From contig NZ_JAUUDS010000002.1 in assembly GCF_030678875.1 (NCBI RefSeq), positions 186,001-250,000 of the forward strand: 64,000 nt of DNA, in the 5' to 3' direction. The translations under genes were made by a program, and so were the position numbers. Positions 27,448 through 58,659 of the stretch are shown piece after piece; position 1 is the stretch's first letter, and every line of letters starts with the position of its first letter. The notes under the pieces are model-generated. The model saw only the letters and a list, made by a program, of their open reading frames with translations. It ran no database searches and was not told the origin of the DNA. Source of the DNA: Sphingomonas aurea. GTDB lineage: Bacteria > Pseudomonadota > Alphaproteobacteria > Sphingomonadales > Sphingomonadaceae.

Positions 27448-27529
27448 TTAATGCTGGACAGTGTGGCGGGCCGCCGATAGCTCTTGGTGTTTGAGGGGCG
27501 AAACAGCCTCGAACGATAAGGGGTCGGGC

Positions 27530-33866: not shown

Positions 33867-35188
33867 GCCGGTTCGACCACCGGCTCGGCGCGGCCGGCAT
33901 AGGGCACGTTGCGCCCGCCATAGCGGCGCACGCGGACATTGGCCTGCTCGCCATGGCCGGCAAACCCCTCGAGCGCGCACAGCCGGCTGCAATATTCGCC
34001 GATCATCGCCGAGGCCGCATCGCTGGTCACCCGCTGATAGGTACAGGTCTTCAGGAACTTGCCGACCCACAGCCCGCCGGTATAGCGCGCCGCCTTCTTG
34101 GTCGGCAGCGTGTGGTTGGTCCCGATCACCTTGTCGCCGTAAGCGACGTTGGTGCGCGGTCCCAGGAACAGCGCGCCATAGTTGGTCATGTTGGCGAGGA
34201 AATAATCGGGATCGCGGGTCATGACCTGAACATGCTCCGACGCGATCTCGTCGGCGATCTGCAGCATCTCCTCGTCGGAATCGGCGACGATCACCTCGCC
34301 GTACGTCTCCCACGCCTTGCGGGCATGGTCGGCGGTCGGCAGGATGGTCAGCAGCCGGTCGATCTCCGCCATCGTGTCGCGCGCCAGCTTCTCCGAGGTG
34401 GTCAGCAGGATCGCCGGGCTGTCCGGGCCATGTTCCGCCTGGCCGAGCAGGTCGGTGGCGCAGAGTTCGCCGTCCGCGCCGATCTCGTCGGCGATCACCA
34501 GCGTCTCGGTCGGGCCGGCGAACAGGTCGATGCCGACGCGCCCGAACAGCTGGCGCTTGGCCTCCGCGACGAACGCGTTGCCCGGGCCGACCAAGATGTC
34601 GACGGGCGCGATCGACTGGGTGCCCAGCCCAATCGCCGCCACCGCCTGAATGCCACCCAGGCAATAGATCTCGTCGGCGCCCGCCATCGCCTGCGCCGCG
34701 ACGATCGCCGGGGCGGGTGCGCCGTTGAACGGCGGCGCACACGTCGCGACCCGCTTCACCCCAGCCACCTTGGCGGTGATGACGCTCATGTGCGCGCTGG
34801 CGAGCAGCGGATACTTGCCGCCCGGAACGTAGCAGCCGGCGGCATTCAGCGGAATGTTCCGGTGGCCGAGCACGACGCCCGGCAAGGTCTCCACCTCGAC
34901 ATCGGTCATGCTGGCGCGCTGGATCTGCGCGAAGTTGCGCACCTGGGTCTGCGCGAACTCGATGTCGCGCAGGTCCTGCGGGTTCAGCTGGTCGATGCAG
35001 GCCTGGATCTCGGCATCGGTCAGGCGATAGCTGTCACGGTCCCAGCGATCGAAGCGGATCGAAAGCTCGCGCACCGCATCGTCGCCGCGCGCCTCGATAT
35101 CGGCAAGAATGCCTTCCACCGTGTCGCGCACCGTGCGGTTATGCTCGACCCGCGCGTCCTGGGCCAAGCCCCGTTTCAGATGGCGCAC
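33863..35188 (-). CDS. Histidinol dehydrogenase-family enzyme 2 (possible sulfopropanediol dehydrogenase-like)
   Basis: A protein of 441 residues with the HisD fold and all expected catalytic positions: zinc ligands Gln250, His253 (LLGQAEHG), Asp352 ([12 protein letters not shown]) and His412 (EGFAGH), and the catalytic pair Glu318-His319. The region [20 protein letters not shown] and the C-terminal [15 protein letters not shown] recall HpsN, the HisD-family enzyme that oxidises (R)-2,3-dihydroxypropane-1-sulfonate. That likeness is from memory and should be treated as a hint. It is the first gene of a four-gene operon with SDR, MetE-like protein and aldolase, 13 bp downstream of a perfect LacI-type operator. 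Confidence 0.85.
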
Positions 35189-39711: not shown

Positions 39712-39755
39712 CGGCGTCGCCACGATGCGGCGCTGCACCTGCAGGCGGAAAATCA

Positions 39756-39769
39756 GTGCGTTTACGCAC
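39756..39769. promoter_or_regulatory. GTGCGT-TT-ACGCAC palindrome before receptor gene
   Basis: Inverted repeat with 6-bp perfect arms and a 2-bp centre, ending 19 bp before the receptor ATG at 39789. It may be an operator or a small leader hairpin. No second copy was found. Confidence 0.3.
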
Positions 39770-39788
39770 CTTAGAAAAGGGGAATTCC

Positions 39789-43577: not shown

Positions 43578-44029
43578 TCCGAATCCACCCTCTCTTCGCG
43601 TGACAGTTCGGCTGCCCGGCTGGCGAATAGGTCCTGCACCCGCGCCGGGCAAGAGACGCCGCCGTCACACCCTGCCACGATTCAGAGAGAGCTTACCTGC
43701 GAGTGTGCAGGATCATGGGCGTAACCCAGCAATCCCGGTTCCGTCGACCGACCGAACCCAGGTGCAGCATGTCACGTAATGGCGACTACGGGCGCGCAGA
43801 GCACCTGCCGCCTCCTAAACGCCGGTCCGGCGCTACCAGATCTCTCGGATGCCAATGGGTAAGAGCGAAGCCCTGCCGTCGGAGCCGAGCCTTGGGACCT
43901 GTCCCATCCCCTCGGCACCAAACAGCAGCCCCGCCACCGCAGTTTCATATTTCATTTTTCACTTTCATGTGCGCGGTAACATGCTAAGACGAGGCAAGGC
44001 GCCTGAGAATGCGTCAAGGGGAGATGGAT
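43578..44029. other. Divergent promoter region, no gene found
   Basis: A 452-bp gap between the IclR gene and the next receptor. No credible coding frame. The AT-richer stretch at 43943-43969 carries heptamer repeats (separate entry) and is the likely promoter zone of the receptor. Confidence 0.55.
43943..43969. repeat. Tandem TTTCAWT heptamer repeats
   Basis: TTTCATA, TTTCATT, TTTCACT and a partial TTCATG in direct succession, about 60 bp before the receptor start, in an unusually AT-rich patch. It may be a regulator-binding array or promoter element. Confidence 0.4.
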
Positions 44030-47000
44030 GTGAGAAAGGAACGGACAGCATTACGGGGGGCATCGGCCCTGGCGCTCGCCATCGCGATGACGGCCACGCC
44101 TTCGCTGGCGCAGAACGGCGCAGCCTCGGCCGCCCCGGCGGCGACCAGCCAGACCGGCGATCCGCTCCAGTCGGATGTACCGGCGGGCACGCCGGCCACC
44201 GCAGGCGGACAGGTCGCGACACCGGGCACCGTGTTGGGCGCTACCGAGGGCGGCGACATTACGGCCAGCGCTGCCGGAGACGATATCGTCGTGACCGGCC
44301 TTCGCCAGTCCCTTGCATCCGCTCAGGCGATCAAGAGGAACTCGGAACAGCTTGTCGACTCGATCACCGCGACCGACATCGGCCGCCTGCCGGACACCAA
44401 CGTTTCGGAAGCGCTACAGCGCATCTCGGGCATCCAGATCCAGCGCAATCGCGGTGAAGGCAGCGCGATCGCGATCCGCGGTCTCACGCAGGTGCGAACG
44501 GAACTGAACGGACGCGACATCTTCTCGGCGAACGGTGGCCGCGGGCTCTCCTTTGAAGAGATCGGCCCCGACCTGCTGGCCGGTGTGGACGTCTACAAGA
44601 ATCCCTCCGCCGAGTTGATCGAGGGATCGCTGGGCGGTACGGTGAACCTGCGCACGCGCATGCCATTCGACGCGCCGGGGCAGATCATCTCGGTCACAGG
44701 ATCGGTCACCCGGTACGATTTCGCCGAAAAGAACCGCTTCGGTGCCTCGGGCCTCTACAGCAATCGCTGGGAAACCGGGATCGGAGATGTGGGCTTCCTG
44801 GTAAACGCCTCCTGGCAGCAGACCGCCTTTCGCGAAGACAAGATCCAGATCGAGCCCTATCATTTCCATGGCCCGACCCCGATCGAGGGCGCGACGGTCG
44901 AGAACACCCTGGTCCCCGGCTTCGAGAACCAGAACGTCCTGGTGCCGCACGGCGGCGGTTTCAACGATGCGGTGGGCAACCGGAAGCGCTTCAGCGCCGC
45001 GGCCGCCTTCCAGTGGAAACCCGCGGACAATCTCGAGATCTACGCACAGTTCCTCACCGCACATTACCGCTACCATGACTATGGATTGTCGTTCTTCGCA
45101 GCGGGCACGCCGATGACGCCGACGCCCGGCGCGACGTTCACGGTCGAGGACGGCGTGGCGACGTCCGGATCGCTCAGCAATCCGTCGAGCAGCAACGTGG
45201 TGTATCAAGGCAACCGGGCCACGATGACCAGCGACTACTCCGCCGGCGCGAAGTGGGCCGTCACCGATCGCCTCCATGCGAGCGTCGATTATCAGCACAT
45301 CCACTCGACGGCGAACAACCGCAGCCTGAACCTGACCATGAACGTCGTGAATCCGTCCACGTCGCTGCCGGGCCTGGGTTCCAACTTCAACGTCCTGTTC
45401 GATACCCGCGGCGACCTTCCGTCGATGGTGATCGACCGGCCTGGTTACCTGACGGATCCCCGCAACTTCGAGTTTACCGCGATTCAGCCCTTTCAGGAGC
45501 GCAATCGGGCGAACGGCGACGCCGTGCGCGGCGACCTGGAATGGGATTTCGATGACGATTCGTTCCTGCGCAAGTTGAGCGCGGGTGGCCGCTATTCGGT
45601 CAAGGAGGCGATCAACCGCAACTCCAGCACATGGTCGACGATCGGCTCGACCTGCGCGAACTGGTCGTCGCCAGCCGGCTGTTACCAGCCCAGTGCGTTC
45701 CCGCAGTTCACGGAACTCAACCCGCTCCAGGCGACCCTTCTGCGTGGGAGGGCGGCTGGTTTGTATTTTGGGCCGGTGTTGCAATGGCGTCTGAGTTCTG
45801 CCGCGAATCCCGACCAGGGCTTCGCGGATGTGAAGGCCATATCGGGGCAGAGGATCGGTTTCACGCCCTTCGACGACCCCAGCGCGTTCAACGGGACGGT
45901 CGACGAGAAGGACATCTCGGCATATTTCCGGGCCAGCTTCGGGTCGCGCATCCTGGGCATGGATTTGGACGGAAACACCGGCATCCGCTATGTCAGGACG
46001 GAAGAGGTGGGCATCGGATCGCGCGGGCTGACATACCGCGATCCAAACAGCGCACCCGTGACCAACCCGGACGGAACGGTGACGCCGCCGGCGAACGTCA
46101 CCACCCGCGAACCGTTCACCGGCGGCCGCAGCTATACGAAGTGGCTACCCAGCGTGAACCTGCGCCTGCACGTCACATCGAAGCTGCAGGCCCGGTTCGC
46201 ATTCTCGAAGAATATCTTCCGACCCGACTTCAACCAGCTCAATCCGAGCTTCAACCTCAGCCCGACCTATAACGGATCGAGCAACACTCCGCAGACGGTC
46301 AACCCGAACCTGCCGTACGACGCGACCTCGAACCCCTATGCGGGAACGGGCAACGTGTCCGGCAACCCGAACCTCCGTCCGCAGCAGGTGACGTCGTTCG
46401 ATGGCGCCCTGGAATGGTACTTCGCGCCGACCGGCTATGTCTTTGCGACTGTGTTCAAGAAGAACCTCGTCGATCTGCTCGACAACAGGACCTTCCCCGT
46501 CAACCAGACGATCCCCGGCGTCGGTGCCGTGCAGTTCAACGTCAGTTCGGTGGTGAACGTGTCGAAGGGCGGCGTCAAAGGCTTCGAAGTCGGCGGCCAG
46601 CGCTTCTTCGACTTCCTGCCGGGCGTCTTCTCGGGCCTCGGCGTGCAGGCCAATTTCACGCTGTCGGACAGCGACGCGGGCGTCGTGGCGCAGGGGACGG
46701 TAGGAAGCACCAACCTGGTGGCGGTGCCGTTGATCGGCCTGTCCAAGTACAGTTACAACCTGATCGGCCTATACGACAAATACGGCTTCAATCTTCGTGT
46801 AGCTTACAACTGGCGCAGTCGTTACCTTCTGACCACAACCGGTGTCGGCACCCAGACTTTGCCCGAATTCGTCAAGCCGTACGGCGTACTGGATGCTTCG
46901 ATCAGTTACGACTTCAGTCCCAATTTCTCATTGACTATCGATGGATCGAACCTTAACAATGCCCAATATCGCAGCTATTTGGGAACGCCGGCCACGCCGC

Positions 47001-47056
47001 GTGATTTCCAGGTGAACGACAGGCGGCTGTCGGCCCGCGTCAGGGTTCGCTTCTAG
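44030..47056 (+). CDS. TonB-dependent receptor (TIGR01782 type)
   Basis: A protein of 1008 residues from the GTG at 44030, which has AAGGGGA 7 nt upstream; ATG codons in frame at 44009 and 44024 are alternatives. The signal peptide ends near SLAQN. The plug motif DDIVVTGLRQSLASAQAIKRNS and DTNVSEALQRISGIQIQRN are the hallmarks of the Caulobacter/Xanthomonas-type receptors used for glycans. It continues with GLSFEEIGPDLLAGVDVYK and ends in SARVRVRF. A strong terminator follows, then a halogenase-like gene. The ligand is unknown; a plant oligosaccharide fits the surrounding glycosidases. Confidence 0.93.
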   Translation: MRKERTALRGASALALAIAMTATPSLAQNGAASAAPAATSQTGDPLQSDVPAGTPATAGGQVATPGTVLGATEGGDITASAAGDDIVVTGLRQSLASAQAIKRNSEQLVDSITATDIGRLPDTNVSEALQRISGIQIQRNRGEGSAIAIRGLTQVRTELNGRDIFSANGGRGLSFEEIGPDLLAGVDVYKNPSAELIEGSLGGTVNLRTRMPFDAPGQIISVTGSVTRYDFAEKNRFGASGLYSNRWETGIGDVGFLVNASWQQTAFREDKIQIEPYHFHGPTPIEGATVENTLVPGFENQNVLVPHGGGFNDAVGNRKRFSAAAAFQWKPADNLEIYAQFLTAHYRYHDYGLSFFAAGTPMTPTPGATFTVEDGVATSGSLSNPSSSNVVYQGNRATMTSDYSAGAKWAVTDRLHASVDYQHIHSTANNRSLNLTMNVVNPSTSLPGLGSNFNVLFDTRGDLPSMVIDRPGYLTDPRNFEFTAIQPFQERNRANGDAVRGDLEWDFDDDSFLRKLSAGGRYSVKEAINRNSSTWSTIGSTCANWSSPAGCYQPSAFPQFTELNPLQATLLRGRAAGLYFGPVLQWRLSSAANPDQGFADVKAISGQRIGFTPFDDPSAFNGTVDEKDISAYFRASFGSRILGMDLDGNTGIRYVRTEEVGIGSRGLTYRDPNSAPVTNPDGTVTPPANVTTREPFTGGRSYTKWLPSVNLRLHVTSKLQARFAFSKNIFRPDFNQLNPSFNLSPTYNGSSNTPQTVNPNLPYDATSNPYAGTGNVSGNPNLRPQQVTSFDGALEWYFAPTGYVFATVFKKNLVDLLDNRTFPVNQTIPGVGAVQFNVSSVVNVSKGGVKGFEVGGQRFFDFLPGVFSGLGVQANFTLSDSDAGVVAQGTVGSTNLVAVPLIGLSKYSYNLIGLYDKYGFNLRVAYNWRSRYLLTTTGVGTQTLPEFVKPYGVLDASISYDFSPNFSLTIDGSNLNNAQYRSYLGTPATPRDFQVNDRRLSARVRVRF

Positions 47057-47168
47057 ATCAGTTTTCCTCATGCCTTGTCTATCCGAGGATCGCATGAGCA
47101 CCGAAACGCCAGCAGCAACGGTCGAGAACCGTGATCCAAGTGGAACGCTGCTGTCACGATCCCCCTCT

Positions 47169-47197
47169 GTGGCCGCCGGTTGGCGGCCACCTTTTTT
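47169..47197 (+). terminator. Rho-independent terminator
   Basis: Perfect 9-bp stem GTGGCCGCC / GGCGGCCAC with loop GGTT and a CTTTTTT tail, 112 bp after the receptor stop. It separates the receptor from the halogenase-like gene. Confidence 0.92.
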
Positions 47198-47291
47198 CCA
47201 TCTTCGCCGGCCGGCCGGAATGTCCTGCACGGCATCGCGCCATTTGCGGCAGCACGAAGGGCCGCTCAGGTCGGTCCATCAAGGAAAGTCG

Positions 47292-47327
47292 ATGCCCCTC
47301 GCCGACAGCAACCGCCGTGCCCGGTAA
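47292..47327 (+). CDS. Possible 11-residue leader peptide before the halogenase gene
   Basis: ATG at 47292 with AGGAAAG closely upstream opens an 11-codon frame (MPLADSNRRAR) ending in TAA at 47325-47327. Its stop lies just past the GTG start (47317) of the halogenase-like gene in another frame. The good ribosome site and overlap suggest coupling by re-initiation. A frameshift in the true start of the larger gene is the alternative. Confidence 0.35.
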   Translation: MPLADSNRRAR

Positions 47328-48801
47328 GCCCGTCCGTCGCGTCGTCGTCGTCGGTGGCGGAACCGCGGGATGGATGGCGGCGGCGATGCTGGCGAGCCGC
47401 CTGCCCGCCGGCCGCGTCGGCATCGCCGTCGTGGAGTCGCCAGAGATCGGCATCGTCGGAGTGGGCGAAGCCACGATCCCGCCGATCCTCGACTTCAATC
47501 GCCTGCTCGGCATCGATGAGGACGAGCTGGTCCGGCGCACCGAGGGCACCTACAAGCTGGGCATCAAATTTCGCGACTGGCGCGAACCCGGCCACAGCTA
47601 TTTCCATCCCTTCGGCAGCTACGGCGCGCCGATCGGCGGCCTGTCCTTCCATCAGCATTGGCTGCGCACGCGCGAAGGGCGGCTGGGAGAGTATTCGCTT
47701 CCCCAGGTCGCTGCCTATGCAGGCAAGTTCAGTCGCCCTTCCGACGATCCGCGCAGCGTGCTGTCGAAGATGTCCTACGCGCTGCACTTCGACGCCAGCC
47801 TGTATGCCGGCTTCCTGCGGGAAAGGGCGATCGCGGATGGCGCCGTTCACGTCGAAGGACGCATCGTCGACGTACGGCGCGACGGGCAGAGCGGCGACGT
47901 CGACTCCCTCGTCCTCCAGGACGGACGCGTCATGGCCGGCGACCTCTTCCTCGACTGTTCGGGTTTTCGCGGCCTGCTGATCGAGCAGGCGCTCGGAACC
48001 GGTTATGAGGACTGGTCGCACTGGCTGCCGATGGATCGCGCCGTCGCGGTTCCGTGTGCGAAGACCGGGGAACCCACTCCGTTCACCCGCTCGACCGCCA
48101 CGGGCGCGGGGTGGCGCTGGCGCATTCCGTTGCAGCATCGGACGGGTAACGGTCACGTCTATTGCAGCAGCTTCCTCGACGACGACAGTGCGGAGCGGCA
48201 GCTGATCGAGGGGCTCGACGCCCCCGCGCTGGCGCAACCCCGGCGCCTGACCTTCACGACCGGGCGCAGGAAGCTGTCGTGGAACCACAATGTCATCGCG
48301 CTGGGCCTGGCGTCAGGGTTCATCGAACCGCTCGAGTCGACCTCCATCCACCTTGTCCAACAAGGTGTGCAGACATTGATGGCGCTTTTCCCCAGCGCCT
48401 CGATCGAGCCTGCGGAAGTCGCTCAATATAATCGGCTCATGCAGCAGGATTACGAACGAGTGCGGGATTTCGTGATCCTGCACTACAAGCACACCCTGCG
48501 CCGCGACACGCCCTTCTGGCGGGCGGTCGCCGCGATGGATGTGCCCGACAGCCTGGCCAGCCGACTGGAGGTCTTCCGCTCGCACGGGCGCATCATCCTG
48601 GAACCCGGGGAGCTGTTTACCGAGACGAGTTGGGCCGCTGTGCTGCTGGGGCAAGGCCCCGCCCCGCGCGGCCATGATCCACAGGCGGATGCCTTTCCCG
48701 AGGAGCTGATACGCCAGCAGTTGCAGCGGATGCGCGGCCTGATCCAGCGCGGGGCAGACGCGATGCCGAGCCACGCCTCGTTCCTGGCGAGAGGACGCTA
48801 G
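47317..48801 (+). CDS. Tryptophan halogenase-like flavoprotein 1
   Basis: A protein of 494 residues. It has the FAD motif VVVVGGGTAGWMAAAML, the VGVGEATIPP segment, the catalytic lysine (Lys80 in GTYKLGIKF, matching Lys79 of PrnA), and the WxWxIP motif as GWRWRIP. The late motif SGFIEPLESTSIHLVQQG is complete. So halogenating activity with reduced FAD is possible. In sphingomonads these genes commonly sit beside TonB receptors, and their substrate is not known. The GTG start has no clear Shine-Dalgarno and seems coupled to the short leader. It lies between a receptor and glycosidases, not in a natural-product cluster. Confidence 0.85.
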   Translation: MPGKPVRRVVVVGGGTAGWMAAAMLASRLPAGRVGIAVVESPEIGIVGVGEATIPPILDFNRLLGIDEDELVRRTEGTYKLGIKFRDWREPGHSYFHPFGSYGAPIGGLSFHQHWLRTREGRLGEYSLPQVAAYAGKFSRPSDDPRSVLSKMSYALHFDASLYAGFLRERAIADGAVHVEGRIVDVRRDGQSGDVDSLVLQDGRVMAGDLFLDCSGFRGLLIEQALGTGYEDWSHWLPMDRAVAVPCAKTGEPTPFTRSTATGAGWRWRIPLQHRTGNGHVYCSSFLDDDSAERQLIEGLDAPALAQPRRLTFTTGRRKLSWNHNVIALGLASGFIEPLESTSIHLVQQGVQTLMALFPSASIEPAEVAQYNRLMQQDYERVRDFVILHYKHTLRRDTPFWRAVAAMDVPDSLASRLEVFRSHGRIILEPGELFTETSWAAVLLGQGPAPRGHDPQADAFPEELIRQQLQRMRGLIQRGADAMPSHASFLARGR

Positions 48802-49029
48802 TCGTATGACTGTCCGGCACTCTCAGTCAGCTTCTTCAGTGGCTCTAATGAATATCATCTCTCGAGAGGAACGGACAATCCTTAGTTGGTAAGGAGCAAT
48901 CGGCACCTGCAGCGCTTCAACGCGTGCAGCACGCTTGCTCGATGATATCCAGTTGCAAATATGAATTCAACCCAGATCGGACGACGTTTGCCGAGCTGGT
49001 GCGAGGTCGTTACCAAGGAGAGGTTCGAC

Positions 49030-50595
49030 GTGAAGCTGACCAAACGCGACATTCTCGCCGCGCCGCTGATCGCCGCGCTCGGCCTTGGCAAGGGTGGCTA
49101 CGCCCATTCTCTCGCCAGCAGCGCCGCAGACGACACGGCAGCACTCCCGGCAGCATTCCCGACAGGGCCGTTCACCTCGACCGTCGAGTCCCTCAAGACC
49201 TACCGGACACCGGACTGGTTTCGCGACGCCAAGTTCGGCATCTGGTCGCACTGGGGCCCTCAGGCAGTGCCGCGACAAGGGGACTGGTACGCCCGGTTCA
49301 TGTACGTTCCCGGTCACCCGCACTACGACCATCATGTCAAGACGTACGGCCACCCGTCGGCCGTCGGGTACAAGGACCTCATCCCGCTCTGGACGGCCGA
49401 CAGGTTCGATCCCGACGCCCTGATGGAAAGATATGCGGCCGCGGGAGCGAAGTATTTCGTTTCCATGGGCGTCCACCACGATAATTTCGACCTCTGGAAA
49501 TCCCGGCATCAGCGCTGGAACGCCACGACGATGGGCCCGAAGCGCGACATCGTCGGTGCGTGGAAAAGCGCGGCGAAGCGGCGCGGACTTCGCTTCGGCG
49601 TCTCCGAACATCTCGCGGCAAGCTATACCTGGTGGCATCCCAGCCACCTGTACGACCAGTTCTGGCCCAAGCTGGGCGTCGCCTATGACGGCGCCGATCC
49701 CAAGCTGGCCGATCTATACCACGACAACGCGAACGAACCCTTCATCAACACGCCGCAATCCTGGTACACGCTCAACACCGCCTTTCACCAACATTGGCTC
49801 CGGCGGATCCGCGATCTGGTGGACGCATATCAGCCGGATCTCCTCTATTCGGATGGCGGACTGCCGTTCGGCGCGGTCGGGCGCAGCCTTGTCGCCCATC
49901 TCTACAATGCGAGCGCCGCGCGGACCGGGGGCAGGGTCGACGCCGTCTACACCTGCAAGGACTCCGGTTCGGGCGAGTTCCACCGCGAGGCCAGCGTGCA
50001 GGATGTCGAGCGCGGAGTCCTGCCAGGCATCAACGCCTATCCGTGGCAGACCTGCACGTCGAACGGCGACTGGTTCTTCAACGACAGACATCCCTACAAG
50101 ACCGTGGCGAACGTCATCACGATGCTGGCCGACATCGTCAGCAAGAACGGCAACCTGCTCCTCAACGTCGTCCAGCTTCCGGATGGCAGCCTGCCACCCC
50201 AGTCGGAGCAACTGCTCGCCGAACTGGCGCCGTGGATCAAGGTGAACGGCGAGGCGATCCACGGCACGCGGCCATGGGTGTCGTTCGGGGAAGGCCCGAC
50301 CGAGACGGCCGCCGGCATGTTCAAGGAAAGCGGCGACTATTCCGCCCGGGACATTCGGTTCACGACCAAGGGCGACACGCTCTACGCCCTCACGCTGGGC
50401 GAGCCGTCCGCGACGGTGGCGATCACCGCGCTGCGGCTCGACAATCCGCACGAACGACGCCGCGTCCGCAAGGTGAGGCTGCTGGGGCATCGTGGATCGG
50501 TGTCGTTCCGCCAGACCGACGCCGCTCTGGTGATCGACGTCCCGCCCACCCTGCCTACCCGCCACGCCAGCGCCTTCGCGATCGACTTCGCGTGA
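49030..50595 (+). CDS. Alpha-L-fucosidase, GH29
   Basis: A protein of 521 residues. The GTG at 49030 is chosen for its AAGGAGAGG site 7 nt upstream; an ATG at 48961 lacks one. A KRDILAAPLIAALGLG signal region suggests export. GH29 marks are FRDAKFGIWSHWGP, KYFVSMGVHHDNFDLW and the nucleophile Asp275 in DLLYSDGGLPFG. A C-terminal beta-sandwich follows. It removes terminal L-fucose from glycans. The GH42 gene starts 38 bp later, so the two are one operon. Confidence 0.9.
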   Translation: MKLTKRDILAAPLIAALGLGKGGYAHSLASSAADDTAALPAAFPTGPFTSTVESLKTYRTPDWFRDAKFGIWSHWGPQAVPRQGDWYARFMYVPGHPHYDHHVKTYGHPSAVGYKDLIPLWTADRFDPDALMERYAAAGAKYFVSMGVHHDNFDLWKSRHQRWNATTMGPKRDIVGAWKSAAKRRGLRFGVSEHLAASYTWWHPSHLYDQFWPKLGVAYDGADPKLADLYHDNANEPFINTPQSWYTLNTAFHQHWLRRIRDLVDAYQPDLLYSDGGLPFGAVGRSLVAHLYNASAARTGGRVDAVYTCKDSGSGEFHREASVQDVERGVLPGINAYPWQTCTSNGDWFFNDRHPYKTVANVITMLADIVSKNGNLLLNVVQLPDGSLPPQSEQLLAELAPWIKVNGEAIHGTRPWVSFGEGPTETAAGMFKESGDYSARDIRFTTKGDTLYALTLGEPSATVAITALRLDNPHERRRVRKVRLLGHRGSVSFRQTDAALVIDVPPTLPTRHASAFAIDFA

Positions 50596-50633
50596 TCGGC
50601 CGGCTCTTCCCGCCCCTTATCCGAGAGATATCT

Positions 50634-52709
50634 ATGCCTCGCCTCCTCCACCTGGGTGCCGTCGCGATCGCAACCGCGCTGGCTGCCGGACTTACGCCGA
50701 CATCCGGCCTGCCTGCCGCCGTGGCGCAGGGCGGCGGCGCCCATCCCGAGTGGCCGGGTCGCGGCGACCTGTTCGTCGGCGCCTGCTACCAGCCCATCGA
50801 CCGGTCGCCCGAGCAGATCAGCCAGGACATCGCGATCATGAAGGGGGCCGGCTTCACCATGGTCAGGATTGGCGACCTGTCCTGGGATTCCTTCGAGCCC
50901 GAGGAGGGACGCTTCACCTTCGAATGGTTCGACGACGTCATTCGCCAGATGCACGCCGCCGGCATCAAGGTGATCGTCGACATCCCGGGCCAGCCCGCGC
51001 CGATCTGGCTGCACAAGCGCTATCCCGGTGTCGACCTGGTCAACCAGGATGGGGTCAGGCTCAACGCCGCCACCCGCTATTGGGACAACATCAGTGATCC
51101 CGACTATCGGCGCCTGGCGAAGCGCCTGGCCGAGAAGATGATGCAGCGCTACGCCAGGAACCCGGCGGTGATCGCGCTCGGCTACACGAACGAGATCGGC
51201 AATGGCCAGATGTCCTATTCGGACGCCGATCGTGGCCGTTTCGTCGCTTGGCTGCGCAAGAAATACGGGTCCATCGACGCGCTGAACAAGGCCTGGGCGA
51301 CGCAGCGCTGGTCCCGCCGGATCAACGACTGGAGCCAGGTGGACCTGCCCTATGGCCGCGGCCCCGGACCGAACGAGCGGTATCTCGACCTGCGCCGATA
51401 CTGGTCCGACGACACCATCGGTGCGCTCGAGGATCTGGAGGCCGTCCGCCAGAAATGGGCGCCGAACCTGCCGACCGCATCGAACTTCTGGCCGGATGCA
51501 TGGACCAAGGGGTTCAATTATCCACGCTCGTGGGAGAAATTCTCCACCTATGGCGCGCAAGGCTTCTACCCCGGAGATCCGGTGAGTGCCGCGCTCGATG
51601 TCATGACCAACCGGTCCGGTCACGACACACCCGTCTGGTTCAACGAGTTCACCGCGGGCGGCGGCGGGAACTACGGCACGCCGGGGCGGTCACGCATGTG
51701 GGCCTATTTCGGCCTGCTCCATTATGCGCAGACCTTCCTTGCCTGGACCTTCAACTCGCACATCGGGGGAGAGGAACAGGCGCTGTTCGGCCTGGTCGAT
51801 CATGACGGCCGGCCATCTTGGAAGGTCGGCGAGTTCGGCCAGATCGCGCGCGAGTTCGCGACGTTGCGCAAACTGGGATTTCCCCGGTACCGGCCGCCGG
51901 AAGTCGCCATCCACTACTCCTTCGAGACGAGCTGGCTGACTAGTCCGCCGCCCGGACCCAACACCATGCAGGAGTATTTCAGGGGCAATTACCGCGAACA
52001 GGTGAAGGCCGCGTTTCAGCCCCTGTTCGAGGATAATGTCGACACCGCCGTGATCGACATCGGTCACGACCCGATCGACAGATACAAGCTCGTGGTGCTC
52101 TCGAGCGCCTACATCATGGACAAGGAGACGGCGGACGCCGTCCGATCCTATGTCGCCAGGGGTGGCACGGTCATCATGACAGGCTACTCGGCCAAGGTCG
52201 ACGAGACGGGCAAGTGGTTCGAGACGCCGCTTCCGGGGCGGCTGACCGATGTGTTCGGGGTGCGGACCAACGCCTTCTATCGGTCGGACCAGCCGCTGAA
52301 GGTCACCATCGGTGGCGTGAGCCGGACAGGCACCGACGGCTATTACGAGGTGCTGGAGCCGGGCACCGCCAGGGTGCTGGCGTCGTTCGAGAACACGCCG
52401 GCGAAAAGCCCGGCGGTGACCATCAACCGGTTCGGCAAGGGGCAGGCCGTCTACCTGGCGACGGCGGCTCAACCCGGCTTCACCGGTCCGTTGATCCGGT
52501 CGCTGTACCAGTCGCTGAACATCGAACGCGGACCGCAGACACCCAGGGGCGTCGTGGCGCGGATCGTCGACGGACGAACCCTGTACGTCAACACCACCGA
52601 CACACCGGTGACGGTGCAGATCGGCGGCGCCAGGCGCGCCGTGCTGTCGGGCAAGCGATACCAGGGTGAGATGACGCTGGCCGGCTACGGAGCCGAACTC
52701 CTGGAATAG
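50634..52709 (+). CDS. Beta-galactosidase, GH42
   Basis: A protein of 691 residues with a signal peptide ending near AAVAQ. The TIM barrel carries LFVGACYQPIDRS, the acid/base Glu187 in GYTNEIGNG and the nucleophile Glu338 in VWFNEFTAGGG. Residues about 430-530 form the GH42 trimerisation (glutamine-amidotransferase-like) domain with KLVVLSSAYIM and YVARGGTVIMTGYS. A beta-sandwich ends the protein. It should release galactose, or a related sugar such as L-arabinose, from oligosaccharides in the periplasm. It is paired with the fucosidase. Confidence 0.9.
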   Translation: MPRLLHLGAVAIATALAAGLTPTSGLPAAVAQGGGAHPEWPGRGDLFVGACYQPIDRSPEQISQDIAIMKGAGFTMVRIGDLSWDSFEPEEGRFTFEWFDDVIRQMHAAGIKVIVDIPGQPAPIWLHKRYPGVDLVNQDGVRLNAATRYWDNISDPDYRRLAKRLAEKMMQRYARNPAVIALGYTNEIGNGQMSYSDADRGRFVAWLRKKYGSIDALNKAWATQRWSRRINDWSQVDLPYGRGPGPNERYLDLRRYWSDDTIGALEDLEAVRQKWAPNLPTASNFWPDAWTKGFNYPRSWEKFSTYGAQGFYPGDPVSAALDVMTNRSGHDTPVWFNEFTAGGGGNYGTPGRSRMWAYFGLLHYAQTFLAWTFNSHIGGEEQALFGLVDHDGRPSWKVGEFGQIAREFATLRKLGFPRYRPPEVAIHYSFETSWLTSPPPGPNTMQEYFRGNYREQVKAAFQPLFEDNVDTAVIDIGHDPIDRYKLVVLSSAYIMDKETADAVRSYVARGGTVIMTGYSAKVDETGKWFETPLPGRLTDVFGVRTNAFYRSDQPLKVTIGGVSRTGTDGYYEVLEPGTARVLASFENTPAKSPAVTINRFGKGQAVYLATAAQPGFTGPLIRSLYQSLNIERGPQTPRGVVARIVDGRTLYVNTTDTPVTVQIGGARRAVLSGKRYQGEMTLAGYGAELLE

Positions 52710-53071
52710 GCTAGTGGCGAAAGCGACCAGGACTGCACGCATCGAGCGCCGCTCGCTTACATCATGGGTTGTCTGGACATGCGAGCGTGCAGCATGCGCC
52801 CCGATACATCGGGAACAGCCCCTCTGCGAGCAGGCTGGTCGCCGTCCGGTGCGCCGTGCGGGCAACCCTCTGCGGCTCTGACGGGGCCGGCCGGCCGGCC
52901 AGTCCTACACTGTTACGACTGGCGGGCGTTCGACAGGGCAGCGCCCGTTTCAGGTGGTGAGCCCGGTGGGATCCCGCTTCTCGGCGTGCCTGAATAGGCG
53001 GGATCCCGGGTCGAGCCTTGCGGTTGCGAGATGCTGGCAGCTGTTGCTGCCAGCATCTCTGCTGCGTCGCC
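52710..53071. other. Intergenic region with two strong hairpins, no gene found
   Basis: A 362-bp gap between two convergent genes. No coding frame looks real. It holds an inverted pair GGGATCCCGC / GCGGGATCCC (52968-52977 and 52998-53007) and the hairpin described separately. Confidence 0.6.
53028..53059. terminator. Perfect 13-bp hairpin downstream of receptor gene
   Basis: GAGATGCTGGCAG pairs perfectly with CTGCCAGCATCTC around CTGTTG, 12 bp past the stop of the minus-strand receptor. There is no U-tract, so it may act as an RNA end stabiliser or a rho-independent-like stop. Confidence 0.6.
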
Positions 53072-55960
53072 TTAGAACCGCAGGCGGAAGCCTGCGTTGA
53101 AGCGGGCGCCGTAATTCTCGAAGCTGCGCAGCTGGTTGTCGAAGCGCGCCACCGTGACGTACTTCGCGTTGAAGATGTTCGTGCCCTCGACGAACACCTG
53201 CGCGAACTTCGTCACATCATAGGACGCGCTGGCATCGAACTGGCCATAGTTGCGGACGAACAGCGGCTCGCTGCCGTAACCGTTGGCGATCGACTGCAGG
53301 AAGCGTTCACGCCGGTTGTAGGCGATGCGCGCCGAGATGCCGAACTTCTCGTAGAACAGGGTGAAGTTCTGCGAGTTGCCGATGCCGACGATCGCGAAAC
53401 GCTGCGTCGCGGTGATCTCGTCGAAGCCCCTGTTGGTGCTCACGAACGTCGCGTTCACCTGCGTACCGAAGCCGCTGAGAATGCCCGGCGCCCAGTCAAA
53501 GGTGTGGACGACGTTAAGCTCCAGGCCGCGCACGTCGGCTGCGTCGGCGTTGCGCGGGCGGGATGCGGTGAACGTCGCCTCGTTCGGCCCGGTGATGAAC
53601 CCGCCCACCGGCAGATTGCCGTTGTTGAGGATCGGCGTCGTCTCCGGCTCGAGGGTGGTGACGATGAAGTCCTTGATGTGCTTGTAGAACAAGGCAGCGG
53701 ACAAGGTGGTCGTCGGCGTCGGATACCATTCCAGCGATGCGTCGATGTTGGTCGAACGGTAGGGCTGGAGGTTCGGGTTACCGCCGCTCGACTGGAGCGC
53801 GGCCGGCCGCGTCACGTCATAGGAGGTGACCGGACGCAGGTCGCTGAGCGCCGGACGGGTCAGCGTTTCCGAACCGGCGAAGCGCAGGTTCACGCGCGGC
53901 GCCAGATTGATCTTCAGGTTGAAGTCCGGAAGGAACGCGTCGTAGCTGTTCTTCGCGGTGATCGGCGTGGTGCGATTGCCGTTCAGATAGACCGGGTTGT
54001 AGATCGACGCGTCGGTCGCGATCGGCAGCAGGTCGATGAGCTGGCGCGACTGCGACCGCGAGGCCAGCTCGGTATGGACGTAGCGGGCACCGACGTTGAG
54101 GAACCAGGGCAGGCCGCCCAGATCACCCTCGAGATCGGCCTCCACATAGCCGGCATAGACGCGCTCGCGGACGAAGTCGGGCGGATCGAGGACCGCGCGG
54201 AACCCGTTGCCTTCCGAATCGGCCTGGAGCTGAGCGGCGGACGTGCCGGCCGGCCGCTTCAGAGCCGTGTCCAGCGCGCTGAGCGCGGCCGGCGAGGCCA
54301 GGAAAGCGAGATAGGCGTCCGGATTATACTGCAGGAACGAGGTGGGGATGTTGCCGCTCGATCCGACCTTGCCGACGTTGTAGACGCTGAACAGCGACGG
54401 GTCGGCCAGCGTGTTGTACCCGCAATAGAGGCAGCTGACGTTCAGCGTGCCCGAACCCTGGTTCTGCCGCTTGCGATTGGTGTAGCTGGCGCCGAACCGA
54501 ACGGCGGACAGGGTGCCGTTCGCCTTCCACTCGGTGTCGAACTTCGACTCGACCACGTCTTCCTGCACGTTGTTGCCGCGGTTGCTGGCAAGGTGGGTGC
54601 GCGCCGCCGCCGCATCGGTGAGCGAGCCGGCCGTGAAGTTGGTTATCGATGGCAGCTCGCCGGGGCCACCGGCGGTGTAGGTGTAGGACGTCGGCACGCC
54701 CGCGACGGTGAAATAGCCGCGGCCGGCGCCGTCGTTCTTGGCGCGCGACTTGGTGACGTCGAAAACGATGCGGACATCGTCGGTCGGGTGGAAATCGGCA
54801 TTGGCGCCGATCTGGTAGGTGTCGGTATCGCGTACGCCCGACGCGTCGATCATGTCGGCGTTCGCAGTCGTGGTCAGCGAGGTGACGTTCCGGTTCGCGT
54901 CGATCTGCACGTCGCGGAGTGCGGACGGCTCGAACCACAGGCCCAGCGCCTTGCTGGTCTGGTCCGACTTGAACTTGTTGTAGAGACCATCGACGGTGAC
55001 GGTCAGCTGGTCGCTCGGCCGGTACTGGCCGACCAGCGTCATGCCGAGGCGGCTACGCCGGTCGGTCGTGCCGTTCACGTTGAGGTTGCGCGGCGCATAG
55101 ACGCGCTGGCCGTTCAGCAGCGGCGCGGAGGAGGGGCCGACCTGGATGTCGGGCAGATAGCCTTCCGAATAGACGCTGCGGATGTTGGCGATACGCTTCT
55201 GGTACGAGATCGAGCCCAGAATGCCGAGCTTGCCGTCGGCGAAGGTGTTGCTGATAAGACCGAAGAGCTGCGGCGTCGTCTTCTCGCTGTTCGGTTCGTA
55301 ATTGGCCTTGGCGGTTGCGATCGCGCGGAAGCCGTTCAGGTCGAGCGGCCGCGAGGTGCGCAGGTTGATCGTCGCGCCGATGCCACCGTCCTGCACCCGT
55401 GCCTGCGACGTCTTGTAGACGTCGGCGCCGCTGATGAGCTCGGCGGCCAGCAGGTCGAACGAGAAGGCGCGGCCATAATTGTCGGACGCGAAGCTGCGGC
55501 CGTTGAACAGCACCGTGTTGAACTGCGGGCCGAGGCCGCGAACGGTGACGAACTGGCCTTCGCCGTTGCTGCGGTCGATCGCGACGCCCGGGATGCGCTG
55601 CAGCGATTCGGCGACGTTGGCGTCGGGGAACTTGCCCAGATCTTCCTGGGTGATGCTGTCCTGCACGATCGCCGAGTCACGCTTGCGGCCCGCCGCCGAT
55701 TCGAGGCTGGCACGGATGCCGGTGACGACGATATCGCCATTGTCCTCCTGCTGCGCGATCGTCGCGTTGGGCGCGGCGGCGGCCTGATCGGTCGACGGGG
55801 TGGTCGTGTCGCTGGTCTGCGGAGCGGCGCCGGCCTGCCCGTCTACCATGACCGCGGCGAGTGCCGGACCGGAGAGCAGGGCGATGGCAAGTGCCGCCGC
55901 GCTGCTGGTGATACGGATCCCGGCGCGCGATGCGGCCAGGGGCTGAATGAACAGCTTCAT
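53072..55960 (-). CDS. TonB-dependent receptor (TIGR01782 type)
   Basis: A protein of 962 residues; AGGGGA lies about 5 nt before the ATG at 55960. A signal peptide ends near PALAA. The plug begins GDIVVTGIRASLESAAGRKRDS and has DANVAESLQRIPGVAIDRS, VRGLGPQFNTVLFNGR and GGIGATINLRTSRPLD. It ends FNAGFRLRF. It is the same broad class as the receptor at 44030, associated with oligosaccharide uptake. It is divergent from halogenase-like gene 2 with a 164-bp AT-rich promoter region. Confidence 0.94.
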   Translation of the reverse strand: MKLFIQPLAASRAGIRITSSAAALAIALLSGPALAAVMVDGQAGAAPQTSDTTTPSTDQAAAAPNATIAQQEDNGDIVVTGIRASLESAAGRKRDSAIVQDSITQEDLGKFPDANVAESLQRIPGVAIDRSNGEGQFVTVRGLGPQFNTVLFNGRSFASDNYGRAFSFDLLAAELISGADVYKTSQARVQDGGIGATINLRTSRPLDLNGFRAIATAKANYEPNSEKTTPQLFGLISNTFADGKLGILGSISYQKRIANIRSVYSEGYLPDIQVGPSSAPLLNGQRVYAPRNLNVNGTTDRRSRLGMTLVGQYRPSDQLTVTVDGLYNKFKSDQTSKALGLWFEPSALRDVQIDANRNVTSLTTTANADMIDASGVRDTDTYQIGANADFHPTDDVRIVFDVTKSRAKNDGAGRGYFTVAGVPTSYTYTAGGPGELPSITNFTAGSLTDAAAARTHLASNRGNNVQEDVVESKFDTEWKANGTLSAVRFGASYTNRKRQNQGSGTLNVSCLYCGYNTLADPSLFSVYNVGKVGSSGNIPTSFLQYNPDAYLAFLASPAALSALDTALKRPAGTSAAQLQADSEGNGFRAVLDPPDFVRERVYAGYVEADLEGDLGGLPWFLNVGARYVHTELASRSQSRQLIDLLPIATDASIYNPVYLNGNRTTPITAKNSYDAFLPDFNLKINLAPRVNLRFAGSETLTRPALSDLRPVTSYDVTRPAALQSSGGNPNLQPYRSTNIDASLEWYPTPTTTLSAALFYKHIKDFIVTTLEPETTPILNNGNLPVGGFITGPNEATFTASRPRNADAADVRGLELNVVHTFDWAPGILSGFGTQVNATFVSTNRGFDEITATQRFAIVGIGNSQNFTLFYEKFGISARIAYNRRERFLQSIANGYGSEPLFVRNYGQFDASASYDVTKFAQVFVEGTNIFNAKYVTVARFDNQLRSFENYGARFNAGFRLRF

Positions 55961-56124
55961 ACGTTTCCCCTCCTCTGAACCACCGACTATTGGTGGCGTG
56001 ACTTAATATCTGACATATTGCATATTGCAGCCCCCGAAGAACGACAAGAGGCGTTGCATTATTTATCAGATGTGTTGTTGTAACGAGAACACAGTCGCGG
56101 CTTACGGCCTGGAATGAGGGACGA

Positions 56125-57666
56125 ATGACGGAAGGGGTGGAGGACGGTCGCGGCTTTCGCGTCGTCGTGGTCGGCGGCGGCAGCGCGGGATGGATCGCCG
56201 CGTGCCGGATCGCCGCGGCGCACGAGGATGCGTCGGTAACGCTGATCGAATCGCCGACGACGCCGCCGATCGGGGTGGGCGAAGGCACCTGGCCGACGAT
56301 GCGCAACACACTGGCACGGATCGGGATCGCCGAGGCCGACTTCATCCGCGAGGCCGATGCCGCGCTGAAGCAGGGTGCCCGTTTCGTGGGTTGGACCCAT
56401 GGCGGCGAGGACGCCTATTACCATCCGCTCAACCCGCCGATCGGCGCGGGTGAGGTCGATCTGGCGAGCCGCTGGGTCGACGGGGGCGGCGGAAATACCA
56501 GTTTCGCGGACTGCGTCGACTTCCAGGCGTCGCTCTGCGACGCGGGCCTCGCGCCCAAGAAGATCACCAGCCCGCAGTTCAGCGGCATCGCCAACTATGC
56601 CTATCACCTCGACGCGGGCAAGTTCGCCGAGCTGCTGCGGCGTCACGGCACGGAGCGGCTGGGGGTGCGCCACATCCGGCAGGACGTGACGACGGTCGAC
56701 CAGGCGGAGAACGGTGACATCACCGCACTGCACCTCGCCGACGGATCGTTGCAGGCGGGCGACCTGTTCGTCGACTGTTCGGGGTTCAAGGGGCTGCTGA
56801 TCGGCGGCGTCTATGGCGTCGGATTGCGCGACCGCAGCGACGTGCTGTTCGCCGACCGGGCGCTGGCGTTGCAGGTCCCCTATGACACGCCCGACGCGCC
56901 GATTACCTGCCACACCGTTTCGACCGCCCAGTCGGCTGGCTGGATCTGGGACATCGGACTATGGTCACGGCGCGGCATCGGGCATGTCTATTCGAGTGCG
57001 CACATCAGCGATGACGAGGCGGAGCGCCAGTTGCGGGCCTATGTCGGGCCGCAGGCCGAGGGGCTGACGGCGCGGCGGCTGACCATCAATGCCGGGCAGC
57101 GGCGCATCTTCTGGCAGAACAATTGCGTCGCAGTCGGCCTGTCCGCCGGGTTCCTGGAGCCGCTGGAAGCCTCGTCGCTGATGCTGGTGGAGGTGGCGGT
57201 CGACGCGATCGCCGACCGCCTGCCGCGCACCCCGGCCGCGATGCGCGTCGCCGCGCGCCAGTTCAACGCGGCCTTCGACCATCATTGGGAACGGGTGGTC
57301 GAGTTCCTGAAGCTCCATTACGTCCTGACCCGGCGTACCGACAGCGACTTCTGGCGCGACAATGTCGCGGCGACGAGCGTGCCGGACGGCCTGGCGGATC
57401 GACTGGAGCTGTGGCGAGCGCATCCTCCCGGTCCGGCGGATTTCCCGCACGCGCCGGAGGTGTTCGGCTGGCCGAGCTATCAATATGTACTGCACGGCAT
57501 GGATTTCGAGACGCGATATGCCGAGTTCGCACCGCCTGCCCGGCACGCCAAGGCGGACCGGCTGATCGCCCGCGCCGCCGGGATGAAGGCAGAGGCGGCG
57601 CGCGCTCTGCCGCGGCATCGCGAGCTGCTCCGCGCGATCCGCGACCATGGGTTGCAGGCGGTATGA
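56125..57666 (+). CDS. Tryptophan halogenase-like flavoprotein 2, altered motif
   Basis: A protein of 513 residues. FAD motif VVVVGGGSAGWIAACRI, IGVGEGTWP, catalytic Lys82 (AALKQGARFVGW) and SGFKGLLI / SAGFLEPLEASSLML motifs are present. The usual WxWxIP reads WIWDIG at 273-278, so the proline is replaced by glycine. Activity may be retained with altered specificity or be lost. It overlaps the SapC gene by ATGA and is divergent from the TIGR01782 receptor. The trio receptor, halogenase-like protein and SapC recurs in sphingomonads and Caulobacter relatives. Confidence 0.85.
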   Translation: MTEGVEDGRGFRVVVVGGGSAGWIAACRIAAAHEDASVTLIESPTTPPIGVGEGTWPTMRNTLARIGIAEADFIREADAALKQGARFVGWTHGGEDAYYHPLNPPIGAGEVDLASRWVDGGGGNTSFADCVDFQASLCDAGLAPKKITSPQFSGIANYAYHLDAGKFAELLRRHGTERLGVRHIRQDVTTVDQAENGDITALHLADGSLQAGDLFVDCSGFKGLLIGGVYGVGLRDRSDVLFADRALALQVPYDTPDAPITCHTVSTAQSAGWIWDIGLWSRRGIGHVYSSAHISDDEAERQLRAYVGPQAEGLTARRLTINAGQRRIFWQNNCVAVGLSAGFLEPLEASSLMLVEVAVDAIADRLPRTPAAMRVAARQFNAAFDHHWERVVEFLKLHYVLTRRTDSDFWRDNVAATSVPDGLADRLELWRAHPPGPADFPHAPEVFGWPSYQYVLHGMDFETRYAEFAPPARHAKADRLIARAAGMKAEAARALPRHRELLRAIRDHGLQAV

Positions 57667-58376
57667 GCGCGGTGGTGCCCCTGTCGGTGCAGCGCCACGC
57701 CGGGCTGCGCCTGTCGCCGCGGCCTGGCGGCGGCGCGATGCGCTATGCGCTGCTCGGTCTGTCGGAGCTGCCGCTGGCGGTCGCCGACTTTCCCGTCTGC
57801 CTGGCAAAGGATGGCCAGACCGGACGGTTCGACCTGATCGCCCTTCTGTCGCTGACCGAACCGCGCAATCTGTTCCGTATCGAGGGGCATTGGCAGTCGA
57901 CCTACCTGCCCGAGGGAGCACGGCTGGCGCCGTTCCGCCTGTCTGCACACAGCGATCTGGGCCTTGCGGTGGACGAGGCCGGTGACGGCTGGGCGACCGA
58001 TGGCGAGCCGCTGTTCGCGGAGGGGCGGCCCTCCCCTGCGCTCGCCGCCGTGCGGCCGGCGCTCGAGGCACTGGTGGCGGATGTGGACGCCGCCCGCGCG
58101 ATGATCGCCCGCTTCGCCGCGCTCGACCTGATCCGGGCCATGACCGTCGTGCTGGGTCGCGGCGACGGCGAGGAGGCGCTGGAGGGTCTCTACACGCTCG
58201 ATCCCGAAGGGCTGGCGACGCTGGCCGATGCCGATGTGCTCGACCTGTATCGCTGCGGGTTTCTCTCTGCTGCCAGCCTGATGTCGGCGTCGCTGGCGCA
58301 GGTGGAGCGGCTGCGCCAGCTCCATAACGCGACGAGCAGCGTGCCATTCGACCGGGCGGAGGTCGACCTCCCCTGA
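57663..58376 (+). CDS. SapC family protein
   Basis: A protein of 237 residues matching the SapC pattern: HAGLRLSPRPGG, YALLGLSELPLAVADFPVCL and an LFRIEGHWQSTYLPEGARLAPFRL region (quoted in parts). The family was named after a Campylobacter surface-layer gene cluster, but its biochemical role in sphingomonads is unknown. The start overlaps the halogenase-like gene stop by 4 bp, so both products should be made in step. Confidence 0.85.
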   Translation: MSAVVPLSVQRHAGLRLSPRPGGGAMRYALLGLSELPLAVADFPVCLAKDGQTGRFDLIALLSLTEPRNLFRIEGHWQSTYLPEGARLAPFRLSAHSDLGLAVDEAGDGWATDGEPLFAEGRPSPALAAVRPALEALVADVDAARAMIARFAALDLIRAMTVVLGRGDGEEALEGLYTLDPEGLATLADADVLDLYRCGFLSAASLMSASLAQVERLRQLHNATSSVPFDRAEVDLP

Positions 58377-58659
58377 TCGGCCCGGCGGCGGCGGGGCGTT
58401 CGCGAATGTCCCGGACGCGCGAACAACGACCTTGCCCCTCGGCATGTCACCATGTCTCCGATCACCCGCCCGTCGAAGGCGCAGCGATGCTGTCCCAAGC
58501 TGGCTGACGATCGCCGGGTGTCGCGCTGTGTCGTGAATGCCGCGCTGTGACGACGCCGCCCCACGCGCGCGATCGGTGGCGAAATCGCTCGACGCCTTCT
58601 GAATTATGTCATATTTAATCCTAAGATCGTGACCGATTATCCGAAAAGGAATGCAGGCG

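Follow-up and report, generated by a model that had tools for sequence, protein, structure and literature searches.

Organization of the two halogenase loci

The window analyzed here is a 64,000-nucleotide stretch of the Sphingomonas aurea genome. It contains two genes for flavin-dependent halogenases of the PF04820 family, hal1 and hal2, each of which adjoins a gene for a TonB-dependent receptor (TBDR) of the TIGR01782 family (Table 1). A preliminary description of this stretch had reported two halogenase-like flavoproteins next to such receptors, one of them overlapping a SapC gene. Both points hold, since both receptors score over the family cut-off, both halogenases match PF04820 along its full length (cut-off 21 bits), and the TGA stop codon of hal2 shares an ATGA overlap with the ATG codon of sapC at 57663. 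SapC is found beside hal2 only, and hal1 has no SapC neighbor.

The hal1 open reading frame (ORF) opens at 47131, and the GTG codon at 47317 is its likely start, from which the residues of hal1 are numbered below. The end of receptor A and this start are separated by 260 bp that include a terminator-like hairpin. Four such consensus sites were detected on both strands versus 7.9 expected in shuffled sequences, and the local RNA fold at the hairpin favors a different pairing. An ORF of 85 amino acids in the same gap (47070–47327, plus strand) was considered as a source of a small peptide substrate but set aside, as it spans the hairpin.

Table 1. Genes and features of the hal1 and hal2 loci (positions in the window)
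Feature	Position	Strand	Evidence and remarks
Receptor A, TBDR adjoining hal1	44009–47056	+	TIGR01782 633.6 bits (cut-off 310); Plug and barrel
Terminator-like hairpin between receptor A and hal1	47169–47190	+	9-bp stem followed by CTTTTTT; consensus match only
hal1, flavin-dependent halogenase of the BrvH/Xcc4156 type	47317–48801	+	PF04820 621 bits; 494 aa
GH29 alpha-L-fucosidase, 3' of hal1	48961–50595	+	PF01120 294.5 bits
GH42 beta-galactosidase	49794–52709	+	PF02449 210 bits, PF08532 116 bits; Pfam match begins at residue 331 of the ORF, true start further downstream
Receptor B, TBDR oriented divergently from hal2; member of the SapC-linked subfamily	53072–55960	-	TIGR01782 648.5 bits (cut-off 310)
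hal2, flavin-dependent halogenase of the 2PYX type with WIWDIG	56125–57666	+	PF04820 410 bits
SapC-family protein	57663–58376	+	PF07277 131.8 bits (cut-off 28.9)
GH2-type exo-beta-galactosidase-like protein, 3' of SapC	58651–61554	+	NF049890 913 bits, under the curated cut-off of 1500; PF02837 32 bits

Catalytic residues and clades of the halogenases

Both halogenases keep the GxGxxG motif for binding of flavin adenine dinucleotide (FAD), as GGGTAGW in hal1 and GGGSAGW in hal2. In hal1, the catalytic residues are Lys80 and Glu340 and the WxWxIP motif is present as WRWRIP, in agreement with the preliminary description of this copy. In hal2, the corresponding residues are Lys82 and Glu348, the WxWxIP motif is replaced by WIWDIG, and the Ser after the catalytic Glu by Ala. 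In both proteins, Ser substitutes for the Gly of the Fx.Px.Sx.G halide motif; the same Ser as in hal1 is present in BrvH (PMC7336383).

The best matches of hal1 in the PDB are, in this order, 9luq, 6y1w (Xcc4156, 484 bits) and 6frl (BrvH, 459 bits). The bromide-preferring enzymes BrvH and Xcc4156 resemble hal1 in the full-length match, GxGxxG, Lys, WxWxIP, Glu and short loops, and hal1 aligns without gaps across the two shortened substrate loops of BrvH (loop positions as mapped by us). For hal2, the best matches, all of full length, are 9ltb (481 bits), 2pyx (454 bits) and 9lu2 (420 bits). Among these, the WIWDIG of hal2 recurs in 2pyx, a halogenase from structural genomics that is unpublished but cited in PMC7336383, whereas 9ltb and 9lu2 have WxWDIA. 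No paper naming 9luq, 9ltb or 9lu2 was found in our literature search. PrnA, RebH and PyrH, which belong to the same sequence family and have the same catalytic Lys and Glu, are matched less well by hal1 and hal2 (207–298 bits). These three enzymes serve natural-product pathways and bind tryptophan under a covering loop, whereas hal1 and hal2 adjoin receptors instead. Both hal1 and hal2 are new members of known halogenase subgroups.

Among the relatives assigned to a hal1-type or a hal2-type clade by best seed, the catalytic Lys and Glu are present in all 95 hal1-type proteins and in every hal2-type protein in which the column is filled (35/35 for Lys and 36/36 for Glu). With both residues invariant, the two clades look like working enzymes, and judging from their residues hal1 and hal2 look like catalytically complete halogenases. 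The Gly of WIWDIG, which the preliminary description had noted as a replacement of Pro in copy 2, is indeed there; however, it is a mark of the clade rather than of this copy, because it occurs in all seven hal2-type alignment rows, in 28 of the 35 hal2-type proteins with this column filled, and in 2PYX. The idea that hal2 is a damaged copy was set aside on the same grounds.

It is conceivable that these proteins act in vivo as flavin monooxygenases or redox partners and not as halogenases, and the loss of Pro from WxWxIP, the Ala after the catalytic Glu and the Ser at the usual Gly in hal2 fit such a role. So does the existence of paralogues without the catalytic Lys in related arrays, by which the scaffold can evidently persist without halogenation. 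Nevertheless, the invariance of Lys and Glu in both clades, together with the in vitro halogenation by BrvH and three Xanthomonas enzymes (PMC7336383), speaks against this explanation, which we regard as improbable.

The paralogues in question are PF04820 proteins encoded by inner genes of the array, between halogenases, in 12 loci (L057, L060–L065, L068, L073, L079, L087 and L089), with R, A, S or C in place of the catalytic Lys. The Glu is gone as well in nine of the 12 loci, and the reading frame remains open over about 450–560 amino acids. Judging by the residues, each resembles a pseudo-enzyme that has been retained in its array. L089 also contains fragments, and L079 has no recognized TBDR. 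A related clade of solitary halogenases with WxWDIG and no receptor within 1.5 kb was observed in six loci (L139, L140, L142, L144, L145 and L146). In these six proteins the halide motif has the ordinary S/A-T-G form. One of their genes is next to an alpha-galactosidase gene and another next to a polysaccharide deacetylase/glycosyltransferase gene.

Linkage of halogenases to TonB-dependent receptors

The S. aurea genome (3.42 Mb, 15 contigs) encodes 11 PF04820 proteins and two SapC proteins, as well as 13 TIGR01782 and 52 Plug matches over the respective cut-offs. All 11 halogenases, arranged in eight clusters, adjoin a TBDR-type gene either directly or via a tandem halogenase. The neighboring receptor is of the TIGR01782 family for nine of them, a Plug-barrel receptor for one (L012), and a CarboxypepD_reg/OMP_b-brl_4 receptor for the remaining one (L011). 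By our estimate for this genome, at most about 12% of randomly chosen genes would have a Plug match within 1.5 kb. In hand counts, six of the 13 TIGR01782 receptors are linked to a halogenase versus two of the 39 other Plug receptors (Fisher p 0.0018). Within the window, no halogenase was found next to the other four Plug receptors (12881–15925, 20958–23312, 27461–29896 and 39612–42677) or next to the barrel fragment at 301–1416.

Receptor–halogenase neighborhoods are seen in genomes more widely. We searched 41 genomes for SapC, PF04820, TIGR01782, DUF6445 and Cupin_8, using the best 150 halogenase matches and the top-scoring TIGR01782 matches (17 candidates scored per genome). The proximity counts given below are therefore lower bounds. 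From these genomes 140 regions were fetched, including 44 around SapC, 56 around halogenases, and 40 control regions (L095–L134) around receptors taken from the top of the TIGR01782 list and chosen for having no listed halogenase; genes in all of them are ORF-based calls made without a gene finder. Proximity was then counted in a hand-picked set of 65 regions, comprising the 56 halogenase regions, L058 and L059, six regions of the S. aurea genome, and the window. A TBDR-type gene lies within 1.5 kb of 57 of the 72 halogenase clusters in this set (96 of 113 genes), with a median gap of 101 bp. Apart from the S. aurea regions and the window, the halogenases of this set were chosen outside SapC regions, except for L058 and L059, which were fetched for SapC; as a consequence of this selection, the SapC count of 3/65 is uninformative. 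At the level of whole genomes, a strong halogenase match was found in 25 of the 31 genomes with a TIGR01782 receptor over the cut-off versus one of the ten genomes without it (Fisher p 0.0001; hand count among the matches listed, with lineage not corrected for).

The proposal of the preliminary description that the halogenases are tied to receptors and not to a natural-product cluster is supported, and the receptor link recurs across genomes. Its statement that genes for peptide or indole biosynthesis are lacking also agrees with our data, as no nonribosomal peptide synthetase, polyketide synthase or indole-pathway family was found among the 29 window proteins, a subset of its ORFs, that were scanned against Pfam. 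The nearest natural-product-like ORF, for a SnoaL-like/hydrolase protein (17703–19565), is about 28 kb away.

Could the neighborhood be accidental? Receptors are abundant, with 52 Plug matches in 3.4 Mb, and 15 of the 72 clusters have no receptor link. However, linkage holds for 11 of 11 halogenases in this genome and for 57 of 72 clusters in the hand-picked regions, and the partner families described in the next section are 19- to 28-fold more frequent near listed halogenases than expected (lower bounds). On the strength of these linkage and proximity counts, chance neighborhood was set aside as very improbable.

SapC, Cupin_8 and DUF6445 as recurrent partners

Three further families were found in the company of halogenases in the 41 genomes. 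At least 21 of the 25 strong DUF6445 matches, at least 37 of the 50 strong Cupin_8 matches and at least 28 of the 66 SapC matches have a listed halogenase no more than 6 kb away, versus 0.75, 1.41 and 1.45 expected, respectively. Strong here means over 150 bits, a limit that left out eight of 33 DUF6445 and 13 of 63 Cupin_8 rows, and all 66 SapC rows were used. Of the 150 listed halogenases, 74 have at least one of the three families within 6 kb and about half have none. No match to Cupin_8, DUF6445 or SapC was found in the 40 control receptor regions. A frequent gene order in relatives is receptor, SapC, Cupin_8, halogenase. The phylum at large was sampled with 80 genomes. Five of these have PF04820 matches that exceed 200 bits, and three of the five are outside the class; SapC is present in all five halogenase-bearing genomes, compared with 31 of 80 overall, and lies within 1.3 kb of a halogenase in two of the three genomes outside the class.

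Cupin_8 proteins have an H-x-D pair and a further His in 45 of 45 fetched members, and DUF6445 (PF20043) proteins have H116-x-D118, H208 and R226 in 20 of 20. The HxD...H pattern is a signature of Fe(II)/2-oxoglutarate oxygenases. The Pfam entry of DUF6445 gives its function as unknown; the conserved residues suggest a 2-oxoglutarate oxygenase. DUF6445 genes are concentrated beside receptor-halogenase loci, as in L009 (8066–8776) and 19 further loci.

The triad of receptor, hal2-type halogenase and SapC was found in 10 of the 11 named loci, from Sphingomonas, Stakelama, Novosphingobium and Colwellia; the eleventh locus is a 3.9-kb contig with the halogenase and SapC. The receptor-halogenase-SapC link that the preliminary description considered known from genomes is real, but it is confined to one receptor subfamily and does not extend to hal1. 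High-scoring SapC genes with no halogenase or Cupin_8 nearby were observed in many genomes (e.g., G000:C13:11990-12649), some of them without a strong halogenase among the listed matches, and SapC may have a second role.

An AlphaFold model of SapC built from 12 sequences is confident (predicted local distance difference test, pLDDT, 92.5; predicted template modeling score 0.87). Compared with the PDB, it gave a best E value of 0.83 in Foldseek and no match of Z 2 or higher in VIA-align; the best PDB match of the SapC sequence (E 0.034) is a designed propeller. The fold was therefore set aside as a clue, with no function read from it. The missing match does not prove that the modeled fold is new.

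Co-inheritance of halogenases and receptors

FastTree trees were built for the receptors and their nearest halogenases, and tree distances were compared after dropping one pair, formed by the second receptor of L025. For hal1-type enzymes the distances correlate with those of the receptors (r 0.75, 53 pairs), also within genomes. After dereplication r is 0.69 for 43 pairs, a value reached in none of 5000 shuffles, the largest within-genome shuffle giving 0.52. For hal2-type enzymes the correlation is 0.96 (27 pairs), or 0.92 for 16 dereplicated pairs. Pooling all 81 pairs, including that of L025, lowers r to 0.33 because the two clades mix. On the tree of 128 receptors, the linked or unlinked state changes seven times versus a mean of 33 in shuffles. 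These concordant trees show a long common inheritance of halogenase and receptor.

Receptors were labeled as linked with a 2.5-kb limit, by which the second receptor of L159 is counted as SapC-linked. A Trp at the position of W342 in receptor B was found in 42 of 46 SapC-linked receptors and in none of the 82 others, so that the SapC-linked receptors form a subfamily recognizable in alignments by W342. A single target residue was sought over all 128 receptors, and no aromatic column is shared by the linked receptors of both clades. In ten aligned hal2-linked receptors, Cys residues corresponding to C510 and C513 of receptor B (CLYCGY) are nearly invariant, a possible disulfide or metal site. 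In the model of receptor B (pLDDT 66, with a poorly modeled plug), W342 is located where a long strand ends; the model carries little weight.

Neighboring genes and the possible role of the receptor ligand

The loci resemble the carbohydrate utilization loci containing TBDRs (CUT loci) of Xanthomonas and Caulobacter, which combine a TBDR with degradative enzymes, a regulator and an inner-membrane transporter, as here (PMC1790865). Unlike the window with its halogenases and SapC, the accessible text of that paper has no mention of "halogen", "SapC" or "Pass1"; likewise, TonB and SapC are absent from the accessible text of PMC8269204, and "TonB" from those of the BrvH and Xcc4156 papers (PMC5945002, PMC7336383). 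A module of receptor, oxygenase and SapC is not described in the accessible parts of PMC1790865, PMC7142613, PMC11340318, PMC8245568 and PMC11337851. Our literature search, whose scope left most subscription journals outside, found no description of it or of the receptor–halogenase link. In the literature searched, neither the repeated occurrence of DUF6445 and Cupin_8 at these loci nor the Lys-less halogenase paralogues are described. The Xanthomonas nix locus for N-acetylglucosamine and the Caulobacter mal locus have reportedly been described with genes of the kind discussed here.

One alternative is that the halogenases modify an imported ligand or a ligand-derived inducer, for example an aromatic substituent of the plant cell wall, in the cytoplasm for catabolism or signaling. 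Glycoside hydrolases, LacI/GntR regulators and transporters of the major facilitator superfamily (MFS) occur in the window and in many linked loci, and the concordance of receptor and halogenase trees fits ligand specificity equally well. The gene neighborhoods, however, argue against it. Neighbors were classified by Pfam for 113 of 209 selected genes (set A3, ending at locus L088) and 44 of 60 (set A4), an all-against-all clustering having been dropped as swamped by antisense ORFs. The hydrolases at halogenase loci belong to many families, the commonest being present in three of 113 proteins, and none of the scanned proteins beside the two window halogenases belongs to aromatic-ring metabolism. 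The triad, compared for a part of the genes at each locus, adjoins GH35 in L156, whereas L160 and L161 have a symporter together with 2-keto-3-deoxygalactonokinase and melibiase. In L155 one flank of the triad holds a molybdopterin oxidoreductase and a tetrapyrrole methylase, and the other an arabinofuranosidase at a distance of about 4.5 kb from SapC. In L157 and L164 the scanned neighbors are an aminopeptidase and phosphoenolpyruvate carboxylase, and in L158 GGDEF and DUF3644 proteins, with no glycoside hydrolase among those scanned in these three loci. We consider action on the ligand unlikely, though it is the closest competitor of the reading preferred below.

The same comparison bears on the targets listed in the preliminary description, namely a glycan, a surface protein or a signaling molecule. 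A glycan target finds no support, because the triad recurs beside quite different genes and the PF04820 enzyme class acts on electron-rich aromatics. Among the three options a protein fits best, and a signaling molecule is conceivable.

Two genes of the histidinol-dehydrogenase family (24878–26182 and 33863–35188) were also observed in the window, near TBDR, LacI and MFS genes; they perhaps encode a catabolic dehydrogenase rather than an enzyme of histidine synthesis.

Possible substrates and proposed function

The published studies of BrvH and Xcc4156 leave the native substrate of these halogenases open (PMC5945002, PMC7336383). In vitro, BrvH forms 3-bromoindole from indole, but its activity is low and its authors doubt that indole is the natural substrate, likening the enzyme to MibH, which requires a peptide (PMC5945002). 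Because the pocket is open to solvent and indole is turned over slowly, larger or peptide substrates have been suggested, an idea that the authors of the Xcc4156 study extend (PMC5945002, PMC7336383). BrvH-type enzymes and the proposal of a peptide substrate are thus already published.

A free small molecule, indole-like or other, might still be halogenated as a signal or an antagonist, with the receptor serving its uptake or sensing. Apart from the indole bromination by BrvH, this explanation can draw on a transposon insertion in an annotated tryptophan halogenase, listed in a colony-morphology table of a Sphingomonas isolate (PMC11340318), and on transcripts annotated as rebH/prnA, some of them from Colwellia, that rise in deep-sea dispersant treatments (PMC11337851). 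The authors of the latter work suggest either antagonism or a redox influence on the interactions of viruses with host receptors. The small-molecule explanation accords poorly with the doubts about indole cited above, with the clustering of as many as five halogenase-type genes, counting fragments, at a single receptor, and with the Pfam scan of 29 window proteins, which revealed no biosynthetic core genes. We hold it to be less probable than action on the ligand, and quite unlikely.

We tentatively prefer, at a confidence short of an even chance, the reading that hal1 and hal2 are active halogenases of a receptor-linked oxidative-modification module whose substrate is peptidic, perhaps the receptor itself. 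A peptide or protein is taken as the likeliest substrate because of the slow turnover of indole by BrvH, its open pocket and the comparison with MibH. Both enzymes would work in the cytoplasm with reduced FAD (FADH2), O2 and halide, and would probably brominate an aromatic side chain, most likely that of tryptophan, which would fit the open pocket published for BrvH. The most likely substrate would be the receptor encoded alongside, or else a different exported protein from the same locus; it would be modified before export, and SapC would act as a substrate-presenting or assembly partner of hal2. Such a modification might tune the ligand binding or the stability of the receptor. The pairing of receptor and halogenase suggests, but does not prove, that the enzymes modify the receptors or something that the receptors handle.

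Several observations weigh against this reading. The co-transcription of receptor A and hal1 is doubtful, since the gap between them holds the terminator-like hairpin. Of the recurrent partners only SapC is present in the window, and the role assigned to it is a guess. In the profile search of this genome, no Cupin_8 or DUF6445 was detected in the window; the three Cupin_8 matches and the single DUF6445 match all lie on contig C7, and the window is on C8. Among the 41 genomes, 29 of the 66 SapC genes have no listed halogenase or Cupin_8 within 6 kb, and SapC therefore also has an independent life. The 15 unlinked clusters of the hand-picked regions include the six solitary halogenases. Action of the enzyme on the ligand of the receptor would predict concordant trees just as well. 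When the 81 linked receptors were compared with the 38 unlinked ones, no column of W, Y, H, F, C or K told the two groups apart, and the best one reached 46% versus 0%. The W342 signature follows SapC even where no halogenase is nearby and may reflect plain ancestry. Finally, we know of no halogenated outer-membrane protein.

A wider form of the preferred reading is a receptor-maturation module, in which halogenases, Cupin_8, DUF6445 and SapC, in varying combinations, would act on TBDR precursor chains and yield halogenated or hydroxylated receptors for display, with the Lys-less paralogues as partner subunits. We put it forward as a doubtful possibility, ranking after the preferred reading itself.

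Implications

The genomic context narrows the substrate question of the BrvH/Xcc4156-type halogenases, as an outer-membrane receptor is their most constant neighbor, and in relatives two families of oxygenase type and SapC keep the same company. The question thereby becomes testable by mass spectrometry of the receptors in a culturable sphingomonad. If the receptors are the substrate, these loci would represent a new type of modification of outer-membrane proteins and could supply peptide-acting halogenases.

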